From the NCBI GenBank assembly GCA_019359375.1, contig JAHHHL010000022.1, positions 48,445 to 112,444 of the forward strand: a stretch of 64,000 nucleotides of DNA, in the 5' to 3' direction. The position numbers and the translations under genes were made by a program. Under the pieces are notes generated by a model. The model was not told where the DNA came from. It saw nothing but the letters and a program-made list of their open reading frames with translations, and did not search any database. Positions within the stretch are counted from its first letter, which is position 1. Each line of letters opens with the position of its first letter. The DNA comes from Lyngbya sp. HA4199-MV5. Lineage in GTDB: Bacteria > Cyanobacteriota > Cyanobacteriia > Leptolyngbyales > Leptolyngbyaceae. This document shows, piece after piece, positions 36,527 through 40,757 of the stretch.

Positions 36527-39087
36527 TGCAGCGGTTTCTGGCTCTGCTGAAGCACACCAATCTGGATCTTGATGCCGAGGCGATCGCAGATGTGTTGTGG
36601 TTAGCCAGCCAGCTTGACTCAGGTGAAGTGTCTGAGGCAGTGCCTTCAGAGCCAGAATCTCGCGTCGTGGTTGAACAGAGAGAGGAAGACCGTCAACCGC
36701 CGCCACCCCCCCAAAAACTACCAAACGATCAGGCTCAAGTAGCCGTTCAATCATCCCAGCCGCGTACCCAGGCTTCGAGCGGTGGTCTTCCCTTTCAAGC
36801 CCCTGCCGCTCCTGCTTTACGCAATCCGCTGGAACTGGGGCGATCGCTCCGTCCCCTGATGCGAAAGGTGCCCTCTCGGACTGAGCAGATTTTAGATGAG
36901 GAGGCAACAGCGATCCAGATTGCGGAAAGTGCGGGGCAACGGCAATGGGTGCCTATCTTTCAACCAGCACCAGAGCGGTGGCTAGATTTAGCGTTGGTCG
37001 TCGAAGAGACGCACTCAACCGTCATTTGGCAGGAACTGATTACAGAGTTTCAGATACTTCTAGAGCGGCAAGGTGCCTTTCGCCGTATTCACACCTGGAG
37101 TTTGAAAGCCGATACGTCCGGGACTCTTGCTCTTTTCCCAAGACCCAGTAAACTCTTGGAGCCATCGCGTCCGCGCAGTCCCAGAGAGCTATTAGACCCC
37201 AGTGGACGGCAACTGGTTTTGCTCTTGAGCGATTGTGTGTCATCGCTGTGGCGACAGGGCAAGCTTCACCCCTTACTGAAACAGTGGTCTAGCGTGGAAC
37301 CAACGGCGATCGTGCAGTTTCTACCAGAGCGCCTGTGGACGCGGAGTGCCTTGGGGCTGGGGTTGCCCGTGCAATTAAGCGCCTTTGTACCAGGAGTCGC
37401 CAACCCACAGCTTGAAGTAGCCGCTCTGCCCGTGTGGGAGACGGTGAACCTAGCAACGGCATTAACATTGCCAGTCATCACCTTAGAACCAGAATCGTTG
37501 GAACAGTGGGCACAGGTGGTGGGCGGTATGGGAAAAGCCCAAACGGTGGGCATGGTGTTCGACCTGGCGTTTGTGGAAGCGCAAGCCAACACGACTGCGA
37601 TCGCGGATCAGGCTCACCTCATCGCAGGGGAGATCTTGCAGCGCTTTCGGACTACAGCATCGCCAATGGCAAGACGTTTAGCTGGATTAATGTCGCTGGT
37701 GCCCGTGAGTTTGCCCATCATTTACTTGATTCAGGAGACCGTCTTACCCGCATCGCGACAGGTGCATGTGGCGGAAGTGTTTATGAGCGGGCTGTTGGAG
37801 CCTCAAGCCGCGCAAACTCAATCAGAATCAGTGCAGTATGAGTTTGTTGCCGGGGTGAGAGAGCCGTTGCAGGTCTCAGTGCCCAAAACTGAGGCGCTCA
37901 TGGTGCTGGATAAAATTTCTCAATACATTGGCGATCGCGCTGGGTTAGCAATCAAAAGTTTTGCGGCGCTGTTGGTACTCACCGCTGAGCGTGGCGCGAC
38001 AGTTGGGGCAGATGTGCAACAGTTTGCCCAGCTTTCAGCCGGGGTCTTACGACGCTTAGGTGGCGAATATGCCGCCTTTGTGGATGAAATCGATGTCGCC
38101 GCCGCGATGGGTACCGCCCAAGCCTCTTTGCCTCAACTGCAAACCTTTACGTTTGAGGTGGCAACGATCGCCTTCACTCCAGAGGCAGAGCCTCTACCAA
38201 CCATTGATTGGCTCCTCTTTCAATTTGAAGTAGCAACCCTGGAGCGGCAGCGAAGTAGAATCCTGAGAAACCACAGGGAATGGGTCACTAAACGTCAGCA
38301 GCAGGAAGCGTATGGCTTCGTAGAAATATTGGATAGTTTAAAGGTCGTTCAACTAGAGATGGTGCGAATTCCGAGTGGCAGCTTCGTGATGGGAGCGCCC
38401 AAGAGCGAAGGAGGAAGCTTTGATAGTGAAAGACCACAGCATTCGGTGACCATACCATCGTTTGCTTTGGGCAAGTATCCAGTGACCCAGATCCAGTGGC
38501 AAACCGTTGCTGCCTTCCCCGAGGTAAATCGGGAGCTTGATCCTGACCCATCAAGCTTCAAAGGGGACGATCGCCCGGTAGAGAATATTTCCTGGCATGA
38601 TGCAGTGGAGTTTTGCGATCGCTTATCTCGTCACACTCACAGAGCCCATCGCCTACCCAGTGAGGCGGAGTGGGAGTATGCCTGTCGATCTGGGACAACA
38701 ACGCCGTTTCATTTTGGTGAAACGATGACCCCTGAATTAGCCAACTATGACTGGAGCCAAACCTATGGAAAGATACAAGTTACGAAGGGAAAAGATTTTC
38801 ACGGCACAACTCCCGTTGGTCAATTTGGTACTGCCAATACCTTTGGACTTTACGACATGCATGGAAATGTCTGGGAATGGTGCGCCGATCATTGGCATGA
38901 CAACTATGACAATGCACCAACAGACGGAAGTGCATGGTTAACGGATGATCAAGAGGCAAATCGCTTGCTGCGCGGTGGCTCATGGACTTTCAGTCCCGTG
39001 TCTTGTCGTTCTGCTGCCCACGATTGTTCTCCCCCCAGCGGTCGCGCCTACGCTTTCGGTTTTCGGGTTGTGTGTGCGTTTGCGTAG
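36523..39087 (+). CDS. vWA-like (SAV_2336-type) protein fused to FGE-sulfatase domain with DGR-like variable C-terminus
   Basis: An 854-residue protein. After a Pro-rich linker (residues about 40-105), residues about 140-330 form the vWA-like SAV_2336 N-terminal-type region (ERWLDLALVVEETHSTVIWQ, RQLVLLLSDCVSSLWRQGKL). A helical middle follows, then from about 605 an FGE-sulfatase domain: VRIPSGSFVMGAP, GKYPVTQIQWQ, RPVENISWHDAVEFCDRLS, HRLPSEAEWEYACRSGTTTP, FGLYDMHGNVWEWC. The last 40 residues, LLRGGSWTFSPVSCRSAAHD..., are arranged like a DGR variable region. Of the two catalytic cysteines of true FGE only the second is present, so the domain probably binds ligands rather than oxidises cysteine. 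In the model this is the sensor, driven by the MoxR ATPase. Confidence 0.85.
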   Translation: MMQRFLALLKHTNLDLDAEAIADVLWLASQLDSGEVSEAVPSEPESRVVVEQREEDRQPPPPPQKLPNDQAQVAVQSSQPRTQASSGGLPFQAPAAPALRNPLELGRSLRPLMRKVPSRTEQILDEEATAIQIAESAGQRQWVPIFQPAPERWLDLALVVEETHSTVIWQELITEFQILLERQGAFRRIHTWSLKADTSGTLALFPRPSKLLEPSRPRSPRELLDPSGRQLVLLLSDCVSSLWRQGKLHPLLKQWSSVEPTAIVQFLPERLWTRSALGLGLPVQLSAFVPGVANPQLEVAALPVWETVNLATALTLPVITLEPESLEQWAQVVGGMGKAQTVGMVFDLAFVEAQANTTAIADQAHLIAGEILQRFRTTASPMARRLAGLMSLVPVSLPIIYLIQETVLPASRQVHVAEVFMSGLLEPQAAQTQSESVQYEFVAGVREPLQVSVPKTEALMVLDKISQYIGDRAGLAIKSFAALLVLTAERGATVGADVQQFAQLSAGVLRRLGGEYAAFVDEIDVAAAMGTAQASLPQLQTFTFEVATIAFTPEAEPLPTIDWLLFQFEVATLERQRSRILRNHREWVTKRQQQEAYGFVEILDSLKVVQLEMVRIPSGSFVMGAPKSEGGSFDSERPQHSVTIPSFALGKYPVTQIQWQTVAAFPEVNRELDPDPSSFKGDDRPVENISWHDAVEFCDRLSRHTHRAHRLPSEAEWEYACRSGTTTPFHFGETMTPELANYDWSQTYGKIQVTKGKDFHGTTPVGQFGTANTFGLYDMHGNVWEWCADHWHDNYDNAPTDGSAWLTDDQEANRLLRGGSWTFSPVSCRSAAHDCSPPSGRAYAFGFRVVCAFA
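38968..39084 (+). other. DGR-like variable region VR1
   Basis: From CTGCGCGGTGGCTCATGG to the stop codon. The core at 38986-39057 (24 codons) keeps Pro, Cys, Arg, Ser, Ala, Pro, Arg and Tyr at fixed places but differs from VR2 at 16 codons. Third bases are pyrimidines in 15 of those 16 codons, as expected if the template carried AAY codons. The GGFRVVC-like end (FGFRVVCAFA) is the usual terminus of cyanobacterial variable proteins. Confidence 0.75.
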
Positions 39088-39190
39088 CTTTGCTTCCCGA
39101 AGGGTGGACTCTTTCTTAGCCCTTTACCCGCTAGTACTTTTGCTCTCTACTCTTTCTCTTTACCCTCTTCCCTTCCGCGCTTCGCGCGAT
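39085..39190 (+). other. Conserved tail downstream of VR1
   Basis: TAGCTTTGCTTCC-x-AAGGGTGGACTCTT and later blocks (AGCCCTTT, TAGTAC-TTTGC) recur after VR2. It ends in a small hairpin CGCGC-TTC-GCGCG (39176-39188). A shared untranslated tail behind two diverged genes suggests recognition by a common machinery or a recent duplication. Confidence 0.6.
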
Positions 39191-39350
39191 CGAAATTCTA
39201 GGCAAAATCAACCCTTACTTTTATAGAACCCATTTGAGATCTTAGGCAGGGGCTGCAAGCCGCTTCAGCATCAGCCTGACAAAGCAAAGGTTGATCTTAG
39301 AATGGCACTGACCACCCTACTGACCACCCTACGACTTGACGTGCCCCATG

Positions 39351-39898: not shown

Positions 39899-39932
39899 TT
39901 GTTAGTTATCTTCTTAACGTTTCAATCTTCCC

Positions 39933-40757
39933 ATGACATCCCCTCCAACCTCTGAACCCAAACTGGTCATCCACAAACGTCACGAGAAAGCTCAGTACTT
40001 TGTTGAAGACTTGGGCAATGGGGTTGATCTGGAGATGGTGCTTATCCCCGGTGGTAGCTTTTTGATGGGTTCTCCAGAGGATGAATTGGGGCGATCGGAC
40101 ACTGAAGGACCACCGCACACCGTCACCGTCTCGACCTTCTGTTTCGGTAAGTATCCTGTCACTCAGGCGCAGTGGAAGGCTGTAGCGGCATTACCTCAAG
40201 TCAACCAAGCGCTTGAGGCTGATCCATCCGACTTCAAGGGAGAAAATCGCCCAGTAGAGAATGTTTCCTGGTATGAAGCAATGGAGTTCTGCGATCGCCT
40301 CTCTCACCACACCGGACGCACCTACCGTTTACCCAGTGAAGCTGAGTGGGAGTATGCCTGTAGAGCCGGGACAACTACACCTTTTCATTTTGGGGAGACG
40401 ATCACCTCTGATTTGGCAAACTACTATGGAGAAAATACTTATGGCGCTGAACCCAAGGGCACCTCTCGAGGAGAAACGACCCCAGTTGGTAACTTTGGCG
40501 TAGCTAATGCCTTTGGCTTATATGATATGCACGGGAATGTTTGGGAGTGGTGTGCTAACCATTGGCACGGCAATTATGACGGTGCGCCAACGGACGGAAG
40601 CGTCTGGCTGTCTGACGATCAAGAGGCAGGCAGGCTGCTGCGCGGTGGTTCGTGGCGCAGCTATCCCGCCTATTGCCGTTCTGCTTACCGCTTCTACGAT
40701 CATCCGGGCGCTCGCAACTACAGTATCGGTTTTCGTGTTGTTTGTGCAGTTGCGTAG
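39933..40757 (+). CDS. Stand-alone FGE-sulfatase (C-type-lectin-fold) protein with DGR-like variable C-terminus
   Basis: A 274-residue protein. LEMVLIPGGSFLMGSPEDEL, GKYPVTQAQWKAVAALPQVN, RPVENVSWYEAMEFCDRLSH, YRLPSEAEWEYACRAGTTTP and FGLYDMHGNVWEWCANHWHG cover the whole FGE domain, and LLRGGSWRSYPAYCRSAYRF starts the variable segment ending GFRVVCAVA. It is a clear paralogue of the C-terminal domain of the 36523 gene. The first catalytic cysteine of true FGE is Ser here. It has no vWA or membrane part; it may be a diversified receptor subunit or a spare target. Confidence 0.88.
   Translation: MTSPPTSEPKLVIHKRHEKAQYFVEDLGNGVDLEMVLIPGGSFLMGSPEDELGRSDTEGPPHTVTVSTFCFGKYPVTQAQWKAVAALPQVNQALEADPSDFKGENRPVENVSWYEAMEFCDRLSHHTGRTYRLPSEAEWEYACRAGTTTPFHFGETITSDLANYYGENTYGAEPKGTSRGETTPVGNFGVANAFGLYDMHGNVWEWCANHWHGNYDGAPTDGSVWLSDDQEAGRLLRGGSWRSYPAYCRSAYRFYDHPGARNYSIGFRVVCAVA
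40638..40754 (+). other. DGR-like variable region VR2
   Basis: Core at 40656-40727. Its 24 codons align without gaps with VR1; 8 encode the same residue and 16 differ, all at codon position 1 or 2, and 11 of the 16 keep the third base. The flanking CTGCGCGGTGG and TTGCGTAGCTTTGCTTCC are nearly identical to VR1. Some third-base changes mean the two were not both freshly copied from one template. Confidence 0.75.

Follow-up and report, generated by a model that had tools for sequence, protein, structure and literature searches.

The locus and its two target genes

The window analysed here is the whole 64,000-nucleotide stretch of contig JAHHHL010000022.1 from the cyanobacterium Lyngbya sp. HA4199-MV5. 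It carries an operon with two genes, referred to below as the long and the short target, whose 3′ ends resemble the variable regions (VRs) that a diversity-generating retroelement (DGR) rewrites by means of a reverse transcriptase (RT), the Avd protein and a template repeat (TR). A VMAP protein, a MoxR-like AAA ATPase and a vWA component are all encoded here, as in VMAP ternary conflict systems, for which a role in defence has been predicted (PMC7159879, PMC10907252). On this gene content, both targets are assigned to a TIR/VMAP/MoxR/vWA ternary conflict system. Coordinates are collected in Table 1, together with the position that a DGR cassette occupies in a relative, genome G019.

Table 1 Features of the operon, the variable regions and their surroundings (window positions)
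Feature	Position	Strand	Details
TIR domain and EAD9 adapter gene, likely effector	33328..34032	+	Pfam TIR_2 125 bits, EAD9 68 bits
VMAP gene with EAD9, VMAP-M1 and VMAP-C	34029..35516	+	all three Pfam matches above cut-off
MoxR-like AAA ATPase	35519..36526	+	Pfam AAA_5 43 bits, above cut-off; bpMoxR 19.2 bits, below its cut-off of 27
Long target: SAV_2336 N-terminal domain with vWA-like fold, C-terminal FGE (C-type-lectin-fold) domain	36523..39087	+	854 amino acids
VR1, probable orphaned variable region	38971..39084	+	RGGSW to last sense codon; sequence footprint and drift counts
VR1 3′ flank	39085..39188	+	21-nucleotide insertion 39085-39105, GGACTC 39106-39111, pyrimidine-rich tract, GC hairpin CGCG-CTT-CGCG 39176-39186
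Two small genes between long and short target	39391..39898	-	also in G019, blastn 66% over 39391-39856
Short target: FGE domain alone	39933..40757	+	274 amino acids; PF03781 200 bits
VR2, probable orphaned variable region	40641..40754	+	sequence footprint and drift counts
VR2 3′ flank	40755..40861	+	21-nucleotide insertion 40755-40775, GGACTC 40776-40781, pyrimidine-rich tract, hairpin GAGCG-AAG-CGCTC 40849-40861
Position of avd, DGR RT and TR in G019; no counterpart in window	40862..42852	none	blastn/tblastn

VR1 and VR2 carry an adenine-type footprint

An earlier note on this DNA had proposed that the two genes end in DGR-like variable regions, and the counts on which it relied hold. The last 40 codons, stop included, align without gaps (38968-39087 against 40638-40757). 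Within the 24-codon core 16 residues differ, each through a change in the first or second codon position. Of these 16 codons, 11 agree in their third base; in VR1 that base is a pyrimidine in 15 of the 16. In VR2 it is a pyrimidine in all 16.

The rest of the FGE domain, in which 68% of residues are identical between the two targets, behaves differently. Of the codons that change the residue, 11 of 16 in the core keep their third base versus 20 of 66 in the body of the FGE domain (P = 0.008), and pyrimidine thirds make up 31 of 32 versus 76 of 132 (P = 6e-6), an excess that persists when conditioned on the amino acid (P = 7e-4). Differences at codon positions 1, 2 and 3 number 53, 27 and 114 over the 208 codons of the body and 10, 14 and 7 over the 24 of the core. 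The genome's three further FGE genes have pyrimidine-third counts of 10, 10 and 9 of 16.

We then placed the differences relative to template adenines, taking as adenine columns the 27 columns with A in at least half of 17 ungapped TRs from relatives (1 of 18 templates was left out as gapped). Differences between VR1 and VR2 hit 19 of the 27 adenine columns and 15 of the 69 remaining ones (P = 1.4e-5); at first and second codon positions alone, the figures are 19 of 27 versus 5 of 37 (P = 5e-6). Both genes thus match DGR targets in that a C-type-lectin-fold gene terminates in a VR whose differences are of adenine type.

The negative control consisted of 37 end pairs drawn from conserved FGE types, 36 of them among nine genomes plus a single further pair; these are between-genome pairs that have sequences in common. 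Third-base differences outnumber adenine-column differences in all 37, although when expressed as rates one pair is level. VR1 and VR2 reverse this pattern, with differences at 19 of 27 adenine columns versus 10 of 32 third bases. The adenine columns, which lie in the loop, change more than other first and second positions in the control pairs too. The conserved type itself, seen at L019 and at loci of G005, G016, G018, G021, G022, G027, G031 and G034, shares the RGGSW...GFRVV frame, varies little and mostly comes without a DGR-type flank. Elsewhere, the proteins P0005 and P0007, one of them from Scytonema hyalinum, are identical outside the VR but for a single residue, whereas many residues within it differ, which is the appearance of recent DGR writing.

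The 3′ flanks point the same way. In many relatives the VR is followed by GGACTC, or by a close variant of it, then by a tract rich in pyrimidines and a short GC hairpin; VR1 and VR2 have these elements, with short GC hairpins that appear to resemble those of many relatives, and the other three FGE genes of the genome do not, under a flank rule that was fixed after the flanks had been inspected. These elements may have a role at VR1 and VR2. Both ends are of the DGR variable-region type.

Directly before GGACTC, both targets have a 21-nucleotide insertion that carries their stop codon. A similar insertion is found in the long target of G001 (L084) and in both targets of G004 (L138). The long-target VR of G001 matches its own template at 64 of 64 protected sites (defined below), so the insertion alone need not stop copying. 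We considered the insertion as a dispersed genome repeat and rejected this: it has two mismatch-free matches, both at this locus, and one with 3 mismatches.

An assembly without a writer

The earlier note had found no RT or TR within the window, which match searches confirmed, and had suggested that a DGR would act in trans from elsewhere in the genome. The search covered the whole assembly, a draft of 95 contigs that is 100% complete by marker genes. RVT_1 has one match across the genome, a group II intron maturase; the RT on contig C92 was rejected as a DGR RT on its group II maturase domain (TIGR04416 above cut-off). With a DGR-RT profile built from the RTs of eight relatives, on which near full-length relatives' RTs score about 550-705 bits, no DGR RT was found in the assembly; the sole match was that same maturase gene, at 67 bits.

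Avd was likewise absent from the genome at the 80-bit cut-off: the profile gave 7 weak matches, the best at 34.9. A candidate at window 52539-52664 was discarded (E 0.01 in a 64-kb search, within a long reverse-strand open reading frame (ORF)). Searching the assembly for a TR, with VR2 plus its flank and with the G019 template as queries, returned only VR1, VR2 and chance-level matches, and avd, RT and TR of G019 gave by tblastn and blastn only matches in the VRs or at chance level. Both VRs are without a writer in this assembly. The genome-wide check for an RT and template that the earlier note had called for is thus negative and counts against an active DGR; with no DGR RT, no Avd above cut-off and no TR-like match, a DGR acting in trans is not supported.

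A relative carries an intact cassette at the same locus

The part of the earlier proposal that stands, that these are DGR variable regions, gains from G019, a single-contig genome of the same family that has an intact DGR at the same locus. Its gene order matches: TIR-EAD9, VMAP, MoxR, long target, two small reverse-strand genes and short target. Downstream of the short target lie Avd (NF033474, 136 bits), an RT and a TR whose variable codons are mainly AAC or AAT, and the first VR of G019 matches this template at 64 of 64 protected sites. The main blastn synteny between window and G019 ends at 40832, 75 bases past the end of the short target.

The G019 long target has its reading frame broken into two ORFs. 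At L080 (8681-8803), a frameshift in the second VR falls just ahead of the GFRVV block, possibly the product of a recent copying event.

Protected sites as a rough measure of drift since copying presumably stopped

To follow what happened after copying, we paired ungapped 33-codon ends and counted differences at 64 protected sites, the non-adenine sites that template copying keeps alike. The frameshifted second VR of G019 was omitted, and the G020 template, being below the template rule, entered the count as a VR. The VR1-VR2 pair has differences at 11 of the 64 protected sites. By comparison, VR-VR and TR-VR comparisons at RT-bearing loci show 0-2 differences in 16 of 17 cases, the remaining one (G092) showing 5. 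Among 13 pairs from loci without a DGR-type RT match, five have 1-2 differences (G006, G039, G028) and eight have 10-22. G010, a genome of 3 contigs without a DGR-RT match, differs at 17 of 64; its four RVT_1 matches include none on the DGR-RT profile at 1e-20. Another high-drift locus, in G065, lies outside the family, and that genome has one 84-bit RT match whose class was not assigned.

Taking the G019 template as an outgroup polarises the 17 non-adenine sites at which the two VRs differ: the template base is retained by VR2 at 12 sites, by VR1 at 3 and by neither at 2 (12 versus 3, P = 0.035). VR1 is altered even at sites invariant in 17 of 17 templates, the third base of codon 5 and the second base of codon 16. 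VR1 seems to have left the copying cycle before VR2. Third bases differ in 12 of 37 VR codons versus 114 of 208 body codons (P = 0.013), a deficit expected if copying kept the VRs alike after the genes had diverged. The earlier note had named old drift as one way to account for its third-base discrepancies, and this fits the silent and non-adenine differences between the VRs; its other suggestion, two templates, may still apply as far as the sequence tells.

Relatives at apparent stages of loss

Across the family, 7 of 42 genomes have a DGR-RT match, including a broken RT in G020 and a partial RT at a contig end in G040; with so few, cassette losses look common, as far as sequence matches tell. 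We examined the FGE loci of 28 of the 35 genomes without a DGR-RT match, and in 12 of these 28 one end or more has a 3′ flank of DGR type under the same flank rule. Individual relatives appear to be caught midway. In G020 the RT is interrupted by stops and sits next to a template. In G032 (L140, C150), a genome that is 85% complete, VR and template are separated by 372 bases with no RT match. At L137 of G039 (C82, 2313-2549) the VR core is followed by a 3′ flank of template type, the structure expected from VR-template recombination, and G006, of the same genus as the window strain, retains just the first part of avd. These intermediate stages in G020, G032, G039 and G006 support a loss of the cassette. 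VR-template recombination was rejected as the cause of loss in the window strain, where VR2 retains its VR-type flank.

Further details of these loci are worth recording. At L153 (G001:C141) VR and template are 305 bases apart with no RT between them, the RT of G001 lying on another contig; there and at L140 of G032, template and VR agree at 64 of 64 protected sites. At L081 of G092 the end at 3558 also has a VR core that passes into a template-type 3′ flank, here beside an intact RT. Between the targets of L086 (G006), about 6700-8060, lies a decayed stretch with the avd start and an FGE piece, and a TIR reading frame in this stretch enters the short target.

Target domain and neighbouring genes

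The short target has PvdO and TvpA as relatives in PDB. Aligned with 6s07, the C-terminal loop lacks the active-site cysteine pair of FGE: the second cysteine is retained, and in place of the first VR2 has Ser and VR1, by position, Phe. We take both loop cysteines to be catalytic; the human FGE mutants C336S and C341S are on record. A structure model reached a mean predicted local distance difference test score (pLDDT) of 70 and is poor across the VR.

Of the two small reverse-strand genes, the ORF at 39575-39898 encodes 107 amino acids and is without an NCBIfam match; the second encodes fewer than 80. Beyond the position of the G019 cassette, window 42853-43807 holds two overlapping transposase-like ORFs with a frameshift, a pair that presumably resembles an IS630-type transposase.

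Probable former targets of a lost DGR and competing explanations

Taken together, these results make it likely that VR1 and VR2 are former targets of a DGR since lost from the genome, their surfaces now fixed and drifting. The ancestral locus would have had an avd-RT-TR cassette, from which repeated template copying would have held the non-adenine sites of both VRs alike; after its loss, silent and non-adenine changes would have built up, for longer in VR1 than in VR2. The two last-written variants would now be fixed receptors with predicted ligand-binding surfaces, and on published models the FGE domains would recognise an invader and relay this by way of the MoxR, vWA and VMAP proteins to the TIR effector. 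We infer the past DGR activity, the order of loss, the fixed specificity and the sensor role from the footprint, the ternary-system neighbourhood, the missing cassette relative to G019 and the drift counts, all of which are directly visible.

Several points weigh against this account. Relatives' templates stand in for the strain's own, and residues differ at codons 9, 16 and 22, which are non-adenine in most of them; we read these differences as drift. VR pairs at L134, L137 and L152 (G028, G039, G006) show 1-2 protected-site changes in RT-less genomes, counts that would need very recent losses or RTs absent from the assemblies. Silent differences at unchanged residues, 7 of 20 in the VR versus 71 of 142 in the body, give no clear contrast. 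We found no sister strain: the nearest entries of the protein database reach 81% identity (P0003, P0122), a contig-level search gave relatives at 69% or less, and one of the 3 member sequences of the long-target protein cluster was examined. Finally, the draft assembly may omit a piece bearing an RT.

That last point leaves room for a live DGR in trans, encoded in a gap or on a plasmid and possibly with two templates, one per VR. Remote targets are known in cyanobacteria (PMC7517822, in the part of that survey drawn on here), and in G001 a VR and template without an adjacent RT lie on a different contig from the RT. Yet a live writer should hold protected sites near the 0-2 differences of RT-bearing loci rather than 11, and VR1 has changed where every template is invariant; neither RT nor TR turned up, and the nearly closed G010, likewise without a DGR-RT match, has drifted to 17. 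We consider this quite improbable. Only slightly less improbable is a horizontal transfer that brought in the operon, or just its two targets, and left the cassette behind, the DGR having been lost in another lineage: mobile elements have been tied to DGR loci (PMC7517822, PMC10907252, each as far as drawn on here) and a transposase-like gene stands at 42853-43807, but the entire operon order is that of G019, from the same family, which leaves a small chance for a transferred operon that lacked its end.

The FGE C-terminal loop might also evolve fast under ordinary selection for new ligands, with no DGR ever involved, and the changeability of the same columns in conserved FGE types is what this would predict. 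Those types nevertheless show more third-base than adenine-column changes in every control pair, the opposite of VR1 and VR2. Neither the 31 of 32 pyrimidine thirds nor the lower counts in the genome's other three FGE genes, which have no DGR-type flank, are in keeping with it, and the DGR that G019 bears at the same locus comes close to refuting it, leaving it highly improbable.

Loss of a resident DGR, our preferred explanation, may extend to the family. The 7 of 42 RT matches, the 12 of 28 RT-less genomes with DGR-type targets and the range of 1-22 differences per 64 protected sites look as if losses had been repeated and staggered. We tentatively suggest that DGRs here could be disposable maturation machines, in which a pair of immune sensors is diversified, RT, Avd and template are shed and the last variants are inherited, with protected sites serving as a shut-off clock; we hold this as a conjecture that may well prove wrong. 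If ternary systems are defence systems, loci once adaptive sensors would now be inherited ones.

Relation to known systems

The survey of cyanobacterial DGRs (PMC7517822), in the parts describing its approach, starts from the RT, so RT-less genomes are invisible to it. In the present genome the VRs alone disclose the probable loss, and changes at protected sites give a rough measure of the time since copying stopped. Our literature search, which went by title or abstract start, returned no paper on orphaned DGR targets. New here are paired targets in an assembly where no DGR turned up, a countable drift after the presumed loss, and relatives caught at various stages.

The closest known systems are the DGR-associated VMAP ternary systems (Kaur et al. 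2020, PMC7159879; Dore et al. 2024, PMC10907252), which, as described in the portions used here, have the same TIR/EAD9, VMAP, MoxR and vWA-FGE operon. The window locus likewise has one long and one short FGE target, both ending in the DGR manner, and differs in that its assembly yielded no DGR RT, Avd or template. TvpA of Treponema denticola (PDB 2y3c), described as part of a DGR system (PMC7159879), shows low identity (25%).

Incomplete loci have been described before. Thiohalocapsa PB-PSB1 has incomplete DGR loci in a genome with other DGRs (Dore et al. 2024, PMC10907252), and there too DGR parts are gone and targets are kept in place. According to that account, its other DGRs are able to work in trans, and the missing parts gave way to mobile repeats; at the window locus no mobile repeat of that kind was identified, and the assembly shows no remaining DGR. 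In Nostoc PCC 7120, all3226 is a remnant VR protein with, like the targets here, a VR-type end and no RT nearby (Vallota-Eastman et al. 2020, PMC7517822). The relevant passage suggests that the machinery was removed after a good variant had been selected, a suggestion that now becomes testable. The Nostoc genome has two DGRs elsewhere, whereas none was found here, and the paired targets make drift countable.

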